From: Tetrahymena thermophila SB210 | Taxonomy: Eukaryota > Ciliophora > Oligohymenophorea > Hymenostomatida > Tetrahymenidae | Assembly: GCF_000189635.1 (NCBI RefSeq) | Contig: NW_002476377.1 | Coordinates: 186,001 to 250,000, forward strand | Direction: 5' to 3' | DNA length: 64,000 nucleotides | Shown: positions 1,639-61,945 of the stretch, piece after piece | Numbering within the stretch: position 1 is the first letter of the stretch | How the letters are laid out: the number at the start of each line of letters is the position of its first letter | Position numbers and translations under genes: made by a program | The notes under the pieces: model-generated | Told to the model about the DNA's origin: nothing | Seen by the model: the letters and a program-made list of their open reading frames with translations, nothing else | The model's database searches: none

Positions 1639-3051
1639 TCAAAAACGTTTGTTTTCTCTTTTTTTTTATTAATTTTATTCTTCTACTTAATTTTATAATG
1701 GTTATTAATCAGGTCCTTATGCTTCAGTCCTTTTTAATTGCACAGTTAGAGGGAATAAAAGTAGAAAAGCAACTCCAAGACAAATAATTTAAATTATGTA
1801 AATTACTATTGCACGTTCTTCTGTTTCATTTATCATAATAGCAGAATAGACTTCACCAGAAATAAAACTCATTAATTATGCACTGCCTTATAATAAACCC
1901 CCTGATATGCTTGGGTCTGCTGGATAAGCTACTTCTGATGACAGATTAATGAAAAGAGGCATTGGGTGAAATGATAAAATTCCTATTAGAGCATATGGTA
2001 AAATAAGAAGAGTTTGGTTATTTACTGGCAAAACAGGAATTGCAACTCCAAATCCGATCATGCAAACAATACAACTAACCATTAAGTGCTTTTTATAATT
2101 AGGATTATTTCTAAACATCCTGCCTCCTCTCATCATACCAATAACACCTGCAATTATCACTATGTTATTACAATAAGTTGTAACTTCGGAGCCATAACCA
2201 TAAGGAGTTAAAATATAAGATAAAACTACATTAGCTCCTTAATTACATCCTTAAAACAAACCAAAAGACATAAATAGCAACAAGTAGTCCTTATTACTTA
2301 AAACTGATTTTACTTAAGGTAGAAAAGGTTATTTTTCCTTGGCTGCTTCTTTGCTAGGAGGAGTTGGAGGTTTATTTTAGAAAAGAATGCATCCAATTAA
2401 AGCTAAAGGAGTCCCAATATATGCTTCAATAGACATTATTTAATACAATTTATTTCTACCTTCTCTATAGCTATTTAATGCATCTTTATCTATGTCATAT
2501 CCATTCAACCATAATCCAGGGAGAATATTGGAGAGAATTAAACCCAAGAAGGAACCAAGCAGGCATAATAAAAATATTTTTTATCTTACTTCAACTCTAA
2601 ACCAAATAGAGGGAATACTGTTTATCATATTTTAGTTCATAGGTAGACCTATACCTAAAAGGATATGAGCTGCTAGGACACTGTAATAATTATTGTTAAT
2701 TAATAATCTTATCCATAAAGCTGCTATCATAATAGCGCATGATACCCAAATAGTAATGCGCATACCAATTTTTTGCATCATAAAGCTTGCAATGAAAGCC
2801 ATAGGTAAGTATAGTAAATTTGAAGCTAGAGTATTCATAGAAACTACTACGGGATTTATATCATATATCTTTGATACTTATGAATTAATAGGATTAAATG
2901 CACCTATAACTGTATTATATACTATGTTAATAATAAGAAAACCTCCAACCGTTGCCCATCTTGAGCCATATTCTTTATACTGCTAATCTTCGTTTTAATT
3001 CAAGTCAGCGCTCTAAGTTGAGCTATCATTTTTAACTTAATTATTTTTCAT
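1639..3051 (-). CDS. Major facilitator superfamily transporter, SLC49/FLVCR-like
   Basis: Single-exon gene of 470 residues under the ciliate code, from ATG at 3051 to TGA at 1639, with TAA/TAG read as Gln and no in-frame TGA. A hydrophilic, Gln/Asn-rich N-terminus is followed by about twelve hydrophobic stretches split by a charged central loop (KPPTPPSKEAAKEKQP). In the first half, the segment SNLLYLPMAFIASFMMQKIG followed by MR and an Ala-Leu-Trp motif closely matches the second and third helices of the FLVCR (SLC49) family, which move heme, choline or related small molecules across membranes; the substrate here cannot be told from sequence. The C-terminal tail is short, Gln-rich and basic. 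It stands alone, with no gene for 14 kb upstream, and a decayed relative lies at 4764-5030. Confidence 0.85.
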
Positions 3052-3661
3052 GTTTGTATTTTTAACAATTTTTGTCTCTTTTTTAATTACGATTAATTGT
3101 AATAAACTAAATAACACAAATTTAAGCAACAAATTTTGAAATAGATTGATATCAATTCATCTTATAATTCAGAAATAAATAGAAAATTTTTTATTTACAA
3201 ATTTTTTTCTGTTTGTGTAAAGCCATTATTGAATGTATTTTCCAATAAATTTAGATCATTAACCATGAATGATGTAAATATTATTTTTATTTTTAAAATT
3301 AAATCAAAATATAAAAATAGAAACAAAATATTTTATCTAAAATTTTTTAAAAAAATTTCAGTAAAGTAAATGCGAAAAATAAAATTATATCATCCCTAAT
3401 ATTATTTTCTTATTTATCAATTTTATAAATTTGTTATTTTACTTTACGTTTATGTAAATTTGATAATTTGAAATAGAAAGTGATTTATAATTAAAGCAGA
3501 AATAATCAGAAAAATAAGTGATTTACAAATTTTCATAAGAAGGTGTAAAGTCAAAAAATATATGAAAGCAAGCAATAATCTCCTAGAAATTAATGTGAAT
3601 AGAAATATCTTAATTAATTTAATTTTAAAATAAGCATTAAATTAAGTAAACTACATGTTCA

Positions 3662-23300: not shown

Positions 23301-26300
23301 GTTGACATTATAGAAGGATTAGATCTATTTTGTAAATATTATTTGTTAATTAAAATCCTCAATAATAAATTAAAAATAGAATTATCAAATGTATTTTAAC
23401 ATCTATTTAAAAAAATTTTTCTCATAATTATTTGCTTTAATTATAAATTAGTATATTCTGAATATTGGAAACTATAAAAAGTGCATAAGTTTTAATTAAA
23501 TATTCTAAAAAATATAGCCAAAAATCTTAAATATAATAATTTATTTTTGAGCAATAATCAAGTTTAAAAACAAAAAATATTTATTTTTTATTGAGTAACC
23601 TTAAAGATTTTAATTGTATTCCAAAAAGATTAATTAAAGTAATTGTTAAAAAAAATATTACCAAAATGTATGAACCTTCTTACAAATAAGGATTTAAAAA
23701 CAGATTTTTGGAAATAAGCACTCCAGAAACTGCTACCTGAGTTTATGAATATATCATAGTGAATAGCCCAATATTAATAAGGATACCATAACTATTTGTA
23801 TTGGTTGTTACTGGCATAGTAATGTTATTACTTTGAAAATTTATATTTTAAATGTTGAAGGCTAATGAGTTTGAGCTCAATGTTTAAATTTGTGCTACAT
23901 TAATTGTTATAGTGTTGATAAAATAAGTCATATTAAGAAGATTTTAAAAGATATTCAAGTTGGTTAAGGACATTTTGCTTGACTAGAAAACAGAAGTATT
24001 ATTAAGGGTACAATTTTAAATAACAACTCCTTAAATATTTAGTTATTAAATTAAAAAGAAACCAATCAAACCTTAAACATCAGACAAAATAGAATTTTAT
24101 AATAAAATCTAAGAAAAAGATGCTTGAGTCAAGCTTGGTAATTAAAAAATCTATGATTCTAATGAAATTGAAGAAGATTGGCTCATAAATGTTGCGCCCG
24201 AAAGAAATTAGCTTTGTGAAATAGTGATATTTTGTACTGCTATGCTAAATTAAGTTGCTAATGGTATTGAGATCAATGAAGCTTGCTATGAAAGCATGCA
24301 GTTGCTAATGACTAAATTTTAGATATTAATGTTGAAGAAAGAATCAATATACCCATTATAGATTTGTCCTATTTGTATAAAATCATTTAATTGCTAGATT
24401 TTGTTTTAAAATATCACATTTATCAAATTTAAATTTTATGGAATCTAAGCTAAATATATCAATGAGTTAGTATTATTGATGTTGTTGGATTAAATAAACT
24501 AAACATTTTGCAATTCAAGAGAAAGATCTTGTTGAGTATTATCTAACTTTGTGTTTAGCATAACTTTAATACCATTATTCTAAAATTAAATGTTTAATAT
24601 ATTCACTTAATTGAACCCTTATATGACCATATTTTACCCTAAGTTAAAAATAGCATTGCCATTTTGTAATTTCAACTTTCCATTTTAAATGATGTAGGAA
24701 TTTAATTATAAATTGTAGTTTTTTAAGCTGTTAACATTTTAGTATAAATTGCTAATCAAATTCATACTATTCATCTTGCAAACTCCATTTTAATTGAAAT
24801 AAATATTAATTGAAATATTTATAACACCTTTTTTTTTAAGATTAAAATTTTTCAGTGTGAAATAATTATTTCAATAATTTAAGGTAAATAAATATAATAA
24901 GTTAAATAATTTCAATGAATAATTTAATACCTATTTCATTTAAGATGTATTAGTGCATAAGAATATCACTTTAATTAGTATTGAATGGGAGAAATAAATC
25001 TTAAGACTATGCTATTAAGTTTTCAAAAATGAATGGATCTTATGGAGTACCACTTCCTACATAATTAAGGTCGAATTAAGTACCACAAATTACGAAATAA
25101 TCTTTTGTAATTTGGCTTGCAAAGCCCATTTAAGAATCAGCAATTACACATTTTTAAATAGCTTAATTATACATGATAATTGGTTTTTTTATTAAATATT
25201 CAGATAAAATAGAACTAGATTGCACTATTACATTTTATCTGCAATTTAAGCATTAGCTTTAATAAATGTTAAAATCTATTTACTGACTCATACTTGAACT
25301 TTGATTTCCAGTGTATATGCATGTTTAACAAGTAAGGGGACATAATTAGCAATCCTATTGGTTGGAACTTGGGTTTATTAAGAAATTAACATCAACTGTG
25401 ATTTAATTTGTTGATGTTAGATAGAATTGAGAGTTTAAGAAATTCAAATAATCTTATGTAAGAATGTAACCATTAGAATTGGTGCAACTCAAACACTTGG
25501 CGTATGTAACTGTAGGGGAAATTTATTAAGAAACACATTAATTGCAAGAGTTACCACAAATAGGCTCACAAATTTATAGAGACTAATTTAAAATATAACC
25601 TTGCATGCATTAAGTACATATAACAGATGCTGAGAACATTTTTAGATAATCTATTCTCTAACTATCGGTCAAAACCGTACTAAACTAAGTTAAATAACTA
25701 AAAATAAAATAAATAAATGATTTAATTAATTAGATTTTTAATATCAATAAGAATTACTTATAAAAATAAATTTTTACCTTGTAAAGCTGAAATATTTATT
25801 TCCTTCGTAGCAGCTTTGACAGAATTATGGGCAGCTTTTACAGCCAGAAATGCTTGGTATATTTACTGTTAAAAGAGTAGGCTAAACTTTGTTAAGGTAA
25901 TCTATATTTCCACTTTAACTATTGACACATATATTGCTATCATTTAAATAATATCCTTGCTTGCACATCAGGCATTTCTTTGTGTAAACATTACATAAAG
26001 CACACTCATTCATACAATTTTAAGAGTTTTAGTAATCATAAAATCCTTATGAACACTACAGGCACTAGTTGTAAGATGTTGTTGTTGCAGAGTTTCCTGT
26101 TTTTTTATTACAAAGTTAACAGTTAAATAAGTTATTTAAGCAGCTCCCTGTACATAAATTCTATGTATTATCATAATACATTCCATTTTGACATATTTAG
26201 CAGTAGACTTTACCTTATTAGTTTTAAGCACAACTTTAGCAATTAGTAATTGAACAACCCTAAACACAAGATTTTTAATCACTAGAAAGAGTATATCCTT

Positions 26301-29300
26301 AAACACATTAATAGCAAAGGTGAGAAGTAGTAGCTTGACTAACTAAAGTTAAATTGAAGTATTGTTAATAAGTCATAGGCATCGCTTAGGTTCCAAATGC
26401 ATCGAATTAACAATTTTAAATTTTGCTCACACAGTTTTACCCATCTGCAGATACTATGCTGTTTATGTCTATGCAACTCAAACATCTTTGTATAAATGAG
26501 CTTTTATCAAATAAGATGTTAAAAAATTAATTAAATTAGTTCATCGTGTATTCTATTAAGTTAATTCCTAGTAAATCAGAATATGTATCACAACTTGCAC
26601 ATGTTAATGAGCATTTCAAACATTAGGAAGAATTCTAAATGTCGATCGAGCTACCTTACATGCACTAAGTACATATCAAAACTTATTGATTTCCAGAATA
26701 TAACTGTTAACATTATAAGCAATTGTTTCCACACTTTACACATGTTCCATTACTTTATAGTGAATATCCAGACTAGCATTAGATGCACTATTTAGTTTTT
26801 TAATAGTAAAAAATAATAATTTTTAATATTAAAGTAAAATTACTGTTCCATCTTTGTTGCAAGCTGCACAACCTTAAGAGCAGGGACTTTAAGGGTTAAT
26901 TTAAAGAGAGTTTCCAACAATTTAGAAATACTAAACACCTAACTGATTTAAGTTATTTGACTAATCCACAAATTAAGTACATTACATATTGCCAACCCTA
27001 AATTATCAAATAAATGTTAAATAAAGCTAAATTTTTGTTTAAAAAGTATGTACCAAAGTTAATCCTAAAGAAGACAATTCAAACAAGTATACTTGCAATT
27101 ATTAGAACATATCTAAGAATTTTAGTCAAACATCGGGCAAGCAACACAATTTAACATGTTTGGAAGTAAGTAGAATCCATATCTACATACCGTGCAGATA
27201 AACTAGCTGGGGTTCTAGAAAGAGGGGATGCAAGAAGTGCAATTTATATCACATTCTAAAAAATTTTTATTCTAAAAATTAATCTATGTGTAATCTTTAT
27301 AACTATAGCCTAAAGCAGTGCTTTGTACTATTAAAAATAAAAATTTAGAAGCTATTCAATTTAATTATATTACCTTATTAACAGTTTCCTGAACTTAGCA
27401 TTATGTAATTTAAAGGGCAAATTTAGCACTTACCACTTGTTACGGATTAGCATAATCCATAAATATCACTACAATATACTTAATTTTACTAATTATTTTA
27501 GAGATCTTATCCTTTACAAGTACTTAAGTCTAAAGTACACTATTTTAGTAATTAATTAATTTTAATATAAATTCAATTATCAAAAATATGGAAGTAAAAC
27601 TTAAGTTAAGGATGGAATATATACTTGCTTCATTTAATTTAAGTAAACAAATCAATAGAAAAATATTTTAATCTAAAATAAAAATATTTACTTAGTTAAT
27701 TGGCATATTACATTAGACACATTTATAGGGATCATCTGGCTAACATATTTGGCAGTAATTAGGGCATAATATAGAATTAAAAATGGCTGAAGCTACTAAC
27801 CCTTGTTAATTGACTGAGGTTTAAGAATTTATTTATATGTTTTAAGATAAAATCTACATTACAGGATTATATTACTCAGATAGCCCGAATGAAATAACTC
27901 CATTATACACAAAGCTGTTGATTCCACCGAACCAATTCAAATTATTAGGAATATATTTAACAGCACCCAAATTTAATTACTGCTATAGATTTTTTTGACC
28001 TGTCATATTGTCAAAATAAATGTTTGAATTACTGTTTATTTATGTGCTATAAATTGTTGATGGCATTTACAAATTATTCCCTATTCCTATCCATCCAATA
28101 GCCAATTAAGAATAGTAATCATTTGTAATTTAGCATTCTATATCTAATTATTATAAAAGTAAAAGTTCATTCAATGAAATAAATAAATTAATTAATTAAT
28201 TATTTTACTATTTGTAGATGAGTTGAACTGGCAAGAAATCAAATTGAATGGTTATTGTTAAGAATTCATAGATTTAGTATAACCCTAAATGAATAGTATA
28301 ATGCTCTATGTACTTAACTAAGGGGTTATGCTGAAAACATACTTATTCTTAATTTAATAAAAATAAATTTATTTTTATTAAATAACCTATTAAAACTCTA
28401 AAACAATTTTTAGAATATTTAAATCTATCAAATAAATTAATTTATTTATTAAAAATTTTTATTAATTTATATTATTAGATGAAAGTCTTACTTAGTTTAA
28501 ATATTCTTAAATTGTGTAAGTTTAATAAATTAATTTTACAATTTATGAAATAACGTTTTAAAAATAATTAAATATTTACTCTAGAAACAGGAATACTTGT
28601 AGATGAATTCCAAATAACTTATCCGCCATCTTGAATATTGGGATCACAGCTAGCAATATACCTGTTAAATTATTGACATCATTAATTTGCAAATTGTTCA
28701 AACAAAAACTAAAAAATATTCTTACTTAATAGCTAGACTTTAAAGTTTGCCTTAAAATAAAACATTTAATAAAAATGAATTTGATGTAGGCTCATCTGCA
28801 TACATCATTACAGATTGGGTCTAAGAGGAGGCATGATAGTTTTCTTAGACGTTAACAATGCTTAGTTATATCATTGGGGTACAATTCAAAGGATATCTAA
28901 ATATCACTCTCTAGCTATAGGTTAAAGAACTGCTTTAAGTAACTTAAATCTCTCCAATATTTAATCTCTTATTGGCTACAAATGCTTTTTTTACAATTTT
29001 TAATTAGTATCTTTACAGTAAAAAATTATTTCTTACATGGACAATATGAAGTTTCTGGTAAATCAAAAGTGTGAGAAGGGCATTAACATCTTGGAGGGTT
29101 GTTTATTCTATCCGTTGAACAAGTATAGCATTGTGATGGTTATAAAGGATTACAGGTTTGGCACTTCTTATCGCATAGTTTAACGAACTATAAATAAAAC
29201 AACTTTGTTTATAAGAATAAATAGTATTTTTTAAAGTAAGTTACACTTAAGATTATTGAATTTTATTAAAGTTAGTTATTATTTAAATCTGTAGTTGAAG

Positions 29301-49745: not shown

Positions 49746-50390
49746 TCAAAAGTCAATAGCATTAATTACTCTGAAAGCATTATGAGAGAATACATCAAAA
49801 CAGCGAACTTAAAGGAAATTAGTTAAAAAGTAACCCATAATTACTCCTAAGATAGTATCAAAAGTAAAGTGGCACATAAAATAAACTCTAGCTGTCATAA
49901 CAAGAATAACAAATGCAATTAATATCATTTCTAATCTATCATAATCAATTGAAATTCCCATGAAGAATTTCATTATGAAATTCACTTAATTATAAGAAAA
50001 GATAATGTTACAAGCAAAGTTGACTGCTTAAATAGAATCTCCACTAGGAAGAGAGCAATTTTATTCTTTTTATCTAAAAATGCTTGATTTATTTTTTAGC
50101 CATGGAATAAAAATTGGTCTTTTTCTTTTTAAAAGCTTTTTAGTCACTAAAGTCATAATCAGATTGCAAATTATACAAAACAAATAGAAGAGAGCCTAGA
50201 TGATTGAACTTTCTTAGCTTCGTTTTAAAATACTAAAATTGAAGGCATAAACCAGGCAAATAGGAACTATAATAAACGAAGGATTAAACATCAAAGCAAA
50301 TGGATACAATATCATAGAAACTAATTTGCTGTCGAGTTTGTGCAATAACTCGCTTATCGCTTTATCAATTCTATCTAAAAATCCTAGCAT
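49746..50390 (-). CDS. PAP2-superfamily membrane phosphatase with PSGD in place of PSGH
   Basis: Intronless, 214 residues. It has the three PAP2 (lipid phosphate phosphatase/haloperoxidase-fold) motifs in order: K84-x6-R91-P92 (KKLLKRKRP), PSGD at 115-118, and R168-x5-H174-x3-D178 (ARVYFMCHFTFD). H174 is the expected nucleophile and D178 its partner. Several hydrophobic helices flank the motifs (about 26-52, 62-82, 153-173, 181-195), as in membrane PAP2 enzymes that remove phosphate from lipid phosphates, dolichyl diphosphate or similar substrates. The second motif carries Asp118 where PSGH has the acid histidine. Whether this is an active subfamily variant or a loss cannot be decided here. 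The length fits small single-domain members. Confidence 0.85.
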
Positions 50391-51189
50391 AATCTAAAAG
50401 TAAAATATTAATTTTTTTAATAAAAATAATAATTAAAATCAAAGATCTGTCTTTCTGTGAGATAAAAAAATGCTAATTAATTTCATTAAATAATATCTAA
50501 AACAATTTTGAATAAATTTTAAAAAGTGTTTACTTTATCAAAAACTAAACAATTTATTTATGAAGCTTAAAATTATTTTATTGATAAAAACAAATCAAAT
50601 AAAAACTTCTTTATTTGAGTAAAATAATAACCCAATTAAATGAAGAAAGATAATTCAAATAATTTTTTTTATCATAGTCATTTAAAATTGAATAAGAATT
50701 TGTATTATTGATTTTAATATGTATATTTCAAGAGATATAAATTTGTAATTTATTTTATTTTATTTCTAATAAATTCAGGTAAAATGTTACATTTGTAAAA
50801 ATCTAATAAATATTTATTTATTTTGTTCCTTTCAATTCAATGATGGATATTTGTTTTCATGAATAAAAAATAGTAAAAAAATTAGAAAAGATTTTTTAAT
50901 TATTTTAAAATGATTGGTTATTTATTTGCGCATTTAGCATTCAAAACAAAAAAATCTTAGCATGCTTATCAATGGATTTAGTTAATATCAAAAAATCAAA
51001 ATAAATACCATGAATTTATTATTATTATTATTATATTTAAAGGCTTCATTTAAATAAAGGTTATTAAATATATCTAATTTTTTTTAATTAAGTGCTGATA
51101 GTGTATAGTCATTTATAATAAAAAGGATTAGCAACAAAAAAGTGAAGCATAAGTACTAAATATTTTGTAGTCAGTAGATAGTTTTTAAA
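50391..51189. promoter_or_regulatory. Divergent intergenic region between phosphatase and glutamate receptor-like gene
   Basis: About 0.8 kb of A+T-rich DNA between two genes transcribed away from each other, so both promoters must lie here. I see no recognisable promoter element. Confidence 0.4.
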
Positions 51190-57121: not shown

Positions 57122-58208
57122 GTAATATTCCTGCATATTTTATTTAAAAATTTATACAATATACCATATATTCCAAAGCCTAAGAATCTTTGATTTTATA
57201 TATTTTTGAAATATTTATATTAATTTAAAATAATTACTATTGAAGAATAGTTTGTAATTATTTATAAAATTACCAAAAAATATTTTACAAATACTCTATA
57301 AAAAAATAATTCTTTGCTTTTGTACTACTCTCTTAAACATTTTCTAAAATTATAAGTAAAAAAAATTATTAACAAATAAAGAATATCATACAATTTTTTT
57401 TATAAATATAAAAATTTTAAAAATAAATATAAATAAATTTATTAATGAAACAATAAATGACAAAAACATTTTTTTTAGAAAATTAATAATTTTTATAATT
57501 CGTTAATTTTAAACAACAAAATAAATTATACAAATTTATATTAAATCATAAAATAAATTAAAAAAATGTATTTCTAATAATGATTCTATTTAATTTAGAA
57601 TAAAGGCTAATATCTCTATACACCTTTTTAATATATGATATCTTATCTATTAGATTAAATATTATACCTACAATTCCTTTATCAATCTAAAACATTTCTA
57701 TTTCTAATCAAAATTAAAACATATTTAAAAAATAGATTTTAATTTTAATAAATATTCAATATTTTCAAAAACAAACAAAAAATTTTAAGATATTGAGGCT
57801 TAAAAATAACAAAAATCTTAATAAATTAATTTCCTTTTCTAACTTATTTATTAATTTTCTATTAAAAAAAAATATATGTTTATAATCATTTACCAATATT
57901 AGTTTAAAATTAAACACAAAGAATAATATATATCTGCCTTAGAGGAGCTAAAGGAAAAAACTAAAAGCTTTGAAAATACTAAATTATTTATTCATTATTT
58001 ATTTGTTAGTTTGGATTTTAAAATAATTTATATAAAATAAACATAATAGTAACTTTAAATTTATACATTAATATAATAAAAGATTTAAAGCATTAATAAT
58101 ACTCTATGAATTAATAACAAAAGGAAAAGACTTTTGAAAAAATTAAATATTTCAAAAAAATTGATTAAAGAAAAGAAAAGAAAACAAAAATTTAGTATTA
58201 AGAGAAAA
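57122..58208. other. A+T-rich spacer upstream of the stanniocalcin-like gene
   Basis: No gene or repeat noted; contains the presumed promoter of the gene starting at 58209. Confidence 0.45.
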
Positions 58209-58727
58209 ATGAGAATTTAAAACACTTTATTGATAATATTTGCTCTTTCAGGATTGGCTCTTTGTTTTGATTCCTAATACTGCTTAAATGAAGGTCTATC
58301 TAATAAGGATTGTGGATGGTACACTAACTGTTTGGAAAATGCTTATAGCTGTGGATCAGATGGCTATCCTGTAGGATATGGCTTTAAATACTGTAGTAGA
58401 TTTGTTGAAAAGTACAACAACTTCTCAGCTCCTGCTAAGAAATGGATCGATGGTACTTTATCTTGCCTTAAAACCTCTTTGAAGGATACTCTTGTCAACA
58501 AAAGCAAGTATACCTGTGACAATGTTAAGAAAATTGCTTTCGATTCTCACCCTAAATGTTATGTTGAAAATGGTTTCTGCGAATTATTCACTAAAGCAGA
58601 TATCTAAGAAATCTATTCTACCATCTTATCCCTAACTTCTGTTTACTAATTCATGGATTTCTTGTCACTCTAATCTATCAAGTAAGTAACCGTCGTAGCA
58701 TATGAATGTCTTCAATCTAAACTTTGA
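58209..58727 (+). CDS. Secreted stanniocalcin-like Cys-rich protein
   Basis: Intronless, 172 residues. A typical signal peptide (MRIQNTLLIIFALSGLALC) is followed by a compact Cys-rich chain with Cys at 25, 35, 41, 48, 62, 86, 103, 117, 124 and near 168. Spacing and residues match the core of stanniocalcin: CLEN..SC, then CSRFVEKYNN..., then AKKWIDGTLSCLK, C-x13-C-x6-C (103, 117, 124), and a final Cys in AYECLQSKL. In animals stanniocalcins are disulfide-linked secreted glycoproteins acting on calcium/phosphate balance and proteases; related sequences are known in protists, with unknown roles. NKS at 97-99 is a possible N-glycosylation site. The start chosen gives the signal peptide; the ATG inside the ORF at 58332 would remove it. 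G+C is markedly above the flanks. Confidence 0.8.
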
Positions 58728-59542: not shown

Positions 59543-61945
59543 ATGAAAGAATCTCGTTTAGATAAATTATCTAGACCTAAGACGGCAGTTAATAGCCATA
59601 TGAAGTAAATGCTCAATCAAAATGAAGATGAGAAGAAAAAAGAACTACAAAAAAAAGAAATGATTAGAGTTTAAGATGAGAATGGAGAATTACCTCTCAT
59701 TTTTTAAAAGAATCCAGTCTTTTTGGTATTTGAAAATAAATTATAAGCAGAATTATTCAATGCTAGGTGCCATGATACAGGCGAAGTAATTATTTAATAA
59801 AATTGAGAAAGATAATTTGAAGAAAATGTCATCAATTATTTTATAGTAAATTGTAATTATTTTTTCATAATTTCAAAATTAGCATATTTCACAAGAAAAA
59901 GCTAAAGTTTTTAAAGAAGAATTCAACCGCATTAATCTTAAGAAAAGCAAAAATATCTTAAACTTATATTCTATGCGTTTGGGTGTAAATTGTATGATTA
60001 CCTTAAGCAATTTGCTCTAGGATCCAAAGCTGAAAGAATTTGACTCTTTGAATTTAGCTGATAATGCTATTTCAGATAATGGTATGCACTCAATTAAATC
60101 GATTATTGCAAATACTCGCATTAAACACTTAAATTTATCTTCTAATATGATCAGCGAAGCTGGATTAGAAATGATTGTAGATGATCTCAGTAAAAGTGCT
60201 GTGCTCAAAAGTTTAGATTTAGGAGTATAAGAAGGAAGTATACGCAAAAATTCCTTTGGAGTAGATGGAGCTAAATGCATTGCAGCAGTTATTCTATAAA
60301 ATAAAAATATTGAAAGCATTAGATTATAGGACAATGACGTAGGTATCACTGGAGGTGAGATTATAGGAACAGCATTAAAATAAAATAGAACTCTCAAACA
60401 TTTAACTATAGCTGAAAATGAGCTTAAAACACCTGGCGCTGAGTTCATTTTAAAATCTGCTACAAACATAGAGTCGTTGGATTTAGGTAAAAATTATATA
60501 AAATCTGGTATTGGTCCTACTTTAAAATCATACTTAGAAAGTAATGCTAATCTAAAAAAATTAAATCTTGAATATAATGAGCTACTTGTATCAGGTACAC
60601 GTGATTTGTCTATGGGTTTACTACTTTCTAGAAATTTACTTTCTTTAAATTTAAAAGGAAATGGAATAAGAGATGAGGGATTGTAGCTTATCAGCAGAGT
60701 ATTTTTTTTATTAAAATGAATAAAATAAATCTTAATTAATACTTTTTATTTTAAATTAATGAAGGTTTTATGTGATAATTATGTTTTAGAAGAGCTGGAT
60801 GTCAGTCTCAATGAAATTACTCCTATTGGTATAAATTATTTGGCAGAAGCTCTTCCTATGAGTAATATTAAAGTGCTCAATTTAAGTAAAAACCTTTTAG
60901 GAGATGAAAGCTTAATGATTATTGCAGATAAAGCAGAAGGAGCTGAGAATCTTAAGCTTTAGAGGATAGAAATTAACAGTTCTCGTGTTGCTGATGCAGG
61001 TAAAAATTAAATAAATGTTTCAGTTTTAAAAAATGAAATTAAACTTAAATAGGCATTTTGCATTTCCTCGAAAGAATAGAGTACTTTGAGAATATAAAAT
61101 CTATTAAGGCTATTGATAATTTTATATCTGAGAAGATTGAAAAAATATTATTAGAAATATTAGAAAAAAACAAAACTCTTGTTGAGTTTTAAGTAAATGG
61201 TAACAGATTATCTCTATGTTGTTTAAACAGGATAAAGAAGATTTTATAAAGAAATAACAAAGAGCTCGAAGAACGTGAACCAAATAAAATTAGAACAGAA
61301 ATATATAGATTAAAATATGAGTAGCAAAAGATTGAGGCTGCAAGAAGAAAATTAGATTAGTAAGAAAAGGCGATAAATGAATTAGAAACTCAAAAAAATC
61401 AGCTTGAACATAAGCTCCAAAATTTAAAGAAAACAGAAGAACACAAAAGACAAGAGTTGAATGGAAAAATTTAAGACTAAAGGGCAGCAATACAAAAAAA
61501 GAAAGACTTGATAGGTAAAAAAATATTAAAATAAATAATTAAGTATTATTCTAATAAATAAATAAAAATTAATATAGATTAAAACAATGCTAAATTTGAG
61601 TTGCGAAAGAATGAATTATTAGCCGAATTGAATAATTTACAGTAAGAATATGATGTAGCTTAGGTCGAAAGAAATAAAGTTTTCAATGACTTAGAATAAT
61701 TAAATTCAGATATTAACAAAATTGAAGTAGACTTTAAGGATTAATTAGATAACTTAGAAAATGAGCTTTAAAAGCAAAAATAAAAAAAAGAAGAATATGA
61801 TAAAAAGAATGCTGATCTTAATAGTGAGTACTCATAGCTTCTTAAATAAGAAAAAGAACTATCAGAGTATCTTAATAGTTTAGAAAAATAAAAGGCTGCT
61901 TAAAAAAAAAGCAAGAAATAAAATGCCAGTGTCACAAAATTGTGA
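59543..61945 (+). CDS. Leucine-rich-repeat (RNase-inhibitor type) and coiled-coil protein
   Basis: Five exons (59543-59785, 59883-60698, 60765-60999, 61053-61514, 61578-61945) join in phase to give 707 residues. The N-terminus has a basic RPKTA motif. Residues about 130-400 contain at least eight 28-29-residue leucine-rich repeats of the RNase-inhibitor type (FDSLNLADNAISDNGMHSI; KHLNLSSNMISEAGLEMI; SLDLGKNYIKSGIGPTLKSY; EELDVSLNEITPIGINYL). From about 480 to the end is a Lys/Glu/Gln-rich coiled coil (KIEAARRKLDQQEKAINELE). LRR followed by coiled coil is seen in centriolar and axonemal proteins such as LRRC45, so a basal-body or ciliary role is a reasonable guess, not shown. The third intron boundary (ends AAG rather than TAG) is the least certain, though phase is kept. 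Confidence 0.85.

Follow-up and report, generated by a model that had tools for sequence, protein, structure and literature searches.

A short intronless stanniocalcin-family gene in Tetrahymena thermophila, encoding a putatively secreted ten-cysteine protein

The stretch of DNA that was analysed here, which we will call the window, comprises 64,000 nucleotides of the Tetrahymena thermophila SB210 genome, and all positions given below without a contig refer to it. The species agrees with the telomerase exons of the genome, which match PDB chain 6d6v_A, from T. thermophila, over 73 and 137 aligned residues; the only three mismatches lie at the edges beside a presumed intron. Its plus strand carries a stanniocalcin-family gene, the features of which are as follows.

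58209..58727, plus strand: intronless gene of the stanniocalcin family in the ciliate nuclear code, product of 172 aa, stop codon TGA at 58725-58727
58209..58265, plus strand: signal-peptide-like segment, residues 1-19 (predicted from hydrophobicity only; the start of the paralogue is similar)
58272..58607, plus strand: stretch matched by Pfam PF03298, residues 22-133, with 9 of the 10 mature Cys (profile match)
58707..58709, plus strand: tenth mature Cys, C167 (sequence position)

The open reading frame (ORF) at 58209-58727 runs from ATG to TGA and yields 172 amino acids when NCBI table 6 is applied; TAA occurs six times in frame and is read as Gln. That it reads through in the ciliate code agrees with the sequence-only reading of this DNA, which had placed the gene in a ciliate and had called it compact and intronless; a single open frame does span the whole domain, in the window gene and its close paralogue alike. 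The G+C content is 0.306 over the open frame 58110-58724, which is higher than that of the 2-kb block at the gene (0.232) and of its neighbours before (0.196) and after (0.266).

The protein begins with a hydrophobic segment, the best 15-residue Kyte-Doolittle mean being 2.52, from residue 6. The sequence-only reading had described a clean signal peptide, which is here predicted from hydrophobicity only. There are ten mature Cys (residues 25, 35, 41, 48, 62, 86, 103, 117, 124, and 167), and an additional Cys at residue 19 lies at the likely, predicted cleavage point. Candidate N-glycosylation sites are found at N71 and N97, and none was seen by eye in the paralogue. The protein ends in -SKL (58713-58724, plus strand), an ending that resembles a peroxisomal signal. 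We rejected it as a targeting signal, given the signal-peptide-like start and a paralogue that ends in -KKI.

Downstream of the gene, the plus strand at 59889-60698 contains a leucine-rich-repeat coding stretch (LRR_6, E 1e-18), which resembles ribonuclease-inhibitor-type and other repeat proteins. When the flanking frames were considered as a source of functional links, this downstream frame offered none, and the two upstream flanking frames that were tested matched no Pfam family. Elsewhere in the window, several minus-strand frames lie between about 19.9 and 35 kb. One of them, the open frame at 25747-27078 (minus strand), has a Cys content of 9.9%; four of them, this one included, were tested against Pfam, and none had a match to a family at E up to 0.001. 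The minus strand also carries an MFS transporter frame at 1642-3156 and a PAP2-superfamily frame at 49749-50438.

Searched against Pfam, the window protein matched PF03298 (Stanniocalcin) at E 2.6e-7 and 30.7 bits, the cut-off being 23, and this was the sole family listed for it at E up to 10. The alignment pairs residues 22-133 with profile positions 36-137 of 200. The sequence-only reading had proposed a stanniocalcin-like secreted protein, with a profile search as the check; the match is significant, and a second genomic copy likewise lies over the cut-off. The motifs on which the proposal had been built could all be located, namely C41-L-E-N-A-Y-S-C48, L84-S-C-L-K88, and C103-x13-C117-x6-C124. 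All ten Cys occur in order with the spacing of the family, the first nine by comparison with human STC2; the tenth (C167) was placed in the family pattern by STC1 positions, which we assume to apply here. The same reading spoke of a vertebrate hormone family. Membership of the stanniocalcins stands, but "vertebrate" is too narrow, to go by the title of a 2011 paper by Roch and Sherwood (doi 10.1093/gbe/evr020) on the deep eukaryotic roots of the family.

Single-sequence and small-profile comparisons gave less. A phmmer search against PDB chains had STC2 as its best match, which is weak alone (E 0.086), and profile comparison with the STC2 piece returned E-values of 0.0012-0.0016, yet a probability of just 16-20%. 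With a three-row profile against PDB, three unrelated dehydratase chains ranked above STC2, all at E >0.1. Tiny alignments may be the reason for these weaker results, which do not count as support. NCBIfam had no match for the window protein or its close paralogue.

Residues 20-172 were shuffled nine times with the first 19 kept, in five cases without moving any Cys and in four cases freely, and no shuffled sequence matched PF03298 at E up to 10. When the mature window protein was locally aligned with a human STC2 piece of 98 residues, the score was 74, and 5000 Cys-keeping shuffles of the STC2 piece reached a maximum of 56; the score of the paralogue, 61, was reached by 3 of 5000 such shuffles. 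The gaps between successive Cys, for the first nine, are 10, 6, 7, 14, 24, 17, 14, and 7 in the window protein and 9, 5, 6, 9, 24, 16, 14, and 7 in human STC2 when its extra Cys is set aside. Random Cys placements came as near to the STC2 spacing in 2 of 1,000,000 cases, in a test that was picked post hoc and with one Cys set aside, for which reasons more trust belongs to the E-value of the profile match.

Further members of the family were sought in the genome (101 Mb, 445 contigs). The close paralogue lies on contig C123, is 66% identical to the window protein, and matches PF03298 over the cut-off (25.9 bits, E 7.4e-6). A six-frame genome search with PF03298 reported the window place alone (25.5 bits) and missed the paralogue; since the latter is over the cut-off as a protein yet went unreported, six-frame family searching is not exhaustive here. 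Searches for further copies with P0001, P0002, and P0003 as queries each returned the same three places. Between the window gene and the paralogue, 49 first, 30 second, and 88 third codon positions differ, each out of 172, and dN is 0.24; dS was returned as -1, which we read as saturation. Together, these values argue for purifying selection on the two close copies, both of which have probably been kept by selection.

The third place, on contig C138 (L005:952-2001, minus strand), encodes a relative of 350 residues and 20 Cys, with an extra Cys-rich N-terminal part before a stanniocalcin-like middle. It is 31% identical to the window protein over query residues 30-120 (E 1e-6) and has no match to any stanniocalcin model. 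Both alignments (A2 and A3) show it to lack the third Cys of the family pattern. Cys 1 is aligned in A2 across a 12-residue insertion, so that 22 residues rather than 10 precede the next Cys, and is unaligned in A3; of the last two, A2 aligns just the ninth Cys and A3 just the tenth. Loss of the disulfide between Cys 1 and Cys 3 in this relative would fit, though so loose an alignment of three sequences does not establish it. Outside the genome, a scan of viral contigs gave 73 pattern matches and one of prokaryote contigs gave 50, each with two short peptide patterns; none was confirmed as a relative.

We are highly confident that the window protein is a genuine minimal stanniocalcin, that is, a ten-Cys core after a predicted signal peptide and almost nothing beyond. 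As an explanation of the locus as a whole, a minimal stanniocalcin, tentatively a secreted binding module, is the one we consider likely. The cell would export the protein via the secretory pathway, and the protein would then work as a binding module, either a ligand or an inhibitor, docking non-covalently on a protein of the cell surface or the extracellular space much as STC1 does on its protease. It would probably act as a monomer or weak dimer, and its binding partner would probably be something other than a pappalysin. In this specific form, a secreted module bound non-covalently to an extracellular or surface partner, the proposal is tentative and may well turn out otherwise.

The human proteins suggest a more definite partner. 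The accessible text of PMC9579167 names no target proteinases for the human stanniocalcins other than PAPP-A and PAPP-A2, which are M43 metalloproteases. PMC11674741 records relatives of the pappalysins from archaea, bacteria, algae, and fungi. The window protein could accordingly be a metalloprotease inhibitor, as STC1 and STC2 are of PAPP-A, with a missed pappalysin or another metzincin as its target. A six-frame search of the 101-Mb genome with PF05572 (M43) at E up to 1 found 0 matches, in a type of search that missed one stanniocalcin copy; among the control genomes, PF05572 matched in 2 of 14, over the cut-off in 1. An M11 search matched in no control genome and is hence uninformative. 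Six-frame searches match genes exon by exon, and introns may hide an M43 gene. Because of this, and because the PF03298 search of the same kind missed the paralogue, non-detection of M43 is a weak argument that leaves room for a metalloprotease target, and the absence of a pappalysin from the genome is weakly supported. On the protein side, the window protein lacks the Cys that makes the link, and a single contact to PAPP-A is altered. The former argument is only partial, as STC1 inhibits without that Cys (PMC9579167). Taking the M43 non-detection and the changed contact residues together, we judge pappalysin inhibition less likely here, and the metalloprotease reading as a whole, another metzincin included, to be unlikely.

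The other familiar role of the family concerns ions. STC1 is a calcium- and phosphate-regulating hormone in fish gills, and membership of the stanniocalcin family (PF03298) would fit a protein that regulates ciliate calcium or phosphate, for instance via a surface calcium channel. Calcium handling had been one guess of the sequence-only reading, and signalling in mating or secretion the other. A search for Orai had no match in the genome and none in the 14 control genomes either, and is hence uninformative; we regard the ion-regulating role as improbable. Far less probable is that a secreted, Cys-rich ciliate protein outside the family came to a stanniocalcin-like spacing by chance or convergence, which would suit the low profile-comparison probability and the position of STC2 below the top of the three-row ranking, but not two copies over the curated PF03298 cut-off, the want of any family match in the nine shuffles, or an agreement in non-Cys residues that lifts the window protein above all 5000 Cys-keeping shuffles.

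Secreted ten-Cys stanniocalcin homologues in unicellular organisms were reportedly described by Roch and Sherwood in 2011, and on the strength of that work stanniocalcin in single-celled eukaryotes is already known. Among the matches listed in the stanniocalcin literature on ciliates, protists, and invertebrates, judged by titles and abstract openings, there was no report of this Tetrahymena gene. What the literature searched did not yield in print is the combination of a minimal core with a genome in which no pappalysin was detected. It is conceivable, if rather doubtful, that the ciliate copies keep an ancestral monomeric stanniocalcin core that acts without a pappalysin, and that the family originally did something other than block PAPP-A. 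If this is true, Tetrahymena, in which genes can be deleted, would be an organism in which to find that first function. For the human stanniocalcins, both the receptor and the original role are still uncertain. A model ciliate that has two closely related copies, each short and intronless, and in which no pappalysin was detected would make an ancestral role testable by gene deletion.

Human STC2 (PDB 8a7d, 8a7e, 7y5q, and 8hgh) is like the window protein in the order and spacing of its core Cys, and all nine core Cys of the aligned 98-residue STC2 piece are matched when the extra STC2 Cys is set aside. Where STC2 has C-F-E-N, the window protein has C-L-E-N, and the two also resemble each other in the residues leading up to the sixth Cys. 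The numbering of STC2 was set by taking as C120 the additional Cys in the aligned piece, whereupon V63 and K104 fall on Val and Lys as expected. The two proteins differ in length, 172 residues against the 302 of STC2 (longest listed chain), and in the residues by which STC2 forms its links. The window protein has no counterpart of C120, the link to PAPP-A, or of C211, the dimer link, and K104 is replaced by Asp81, with Asp in the paralogue too. According to PMC9579167, C120 is the Cys used to bind PAPP-A, and K104 is placed at the PAPP-A C domain. The window protein ends at residue 172, five residues past its tenth mature Cys, which leaves neither an eleventh, dimerisation-type Cys nor a long C-terminal tail. 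If C167 corresponds to core Cys 10 of STC2, as we take it to do, the protein stops before the end of the STC2 dimer segment E169-C211.

STC1 presumably shares its ten core Cys with the window protein, and its N-glycosylation site presumably lies elsewhere than N71 or N97. Its eleventh, dimerising Cys is absent from the window protein; this Cys of the vertebrate stanniocalcins is not known to be universal in the family. The disulfides of STC1 pair Cys 1-3, 2-5, 4-7, 6-8, and 9-10, and by homology the window protein would have five disulfides in the same order (1-3, 2-5, 4-7, 6-8, and 9-10) holding a small helical bundle. The comparison points to a core-only stanniocalcin that is probably a monomer or weak dimer. 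STC1, like the window protein, has no counterpart of C120 (PMC9579167).
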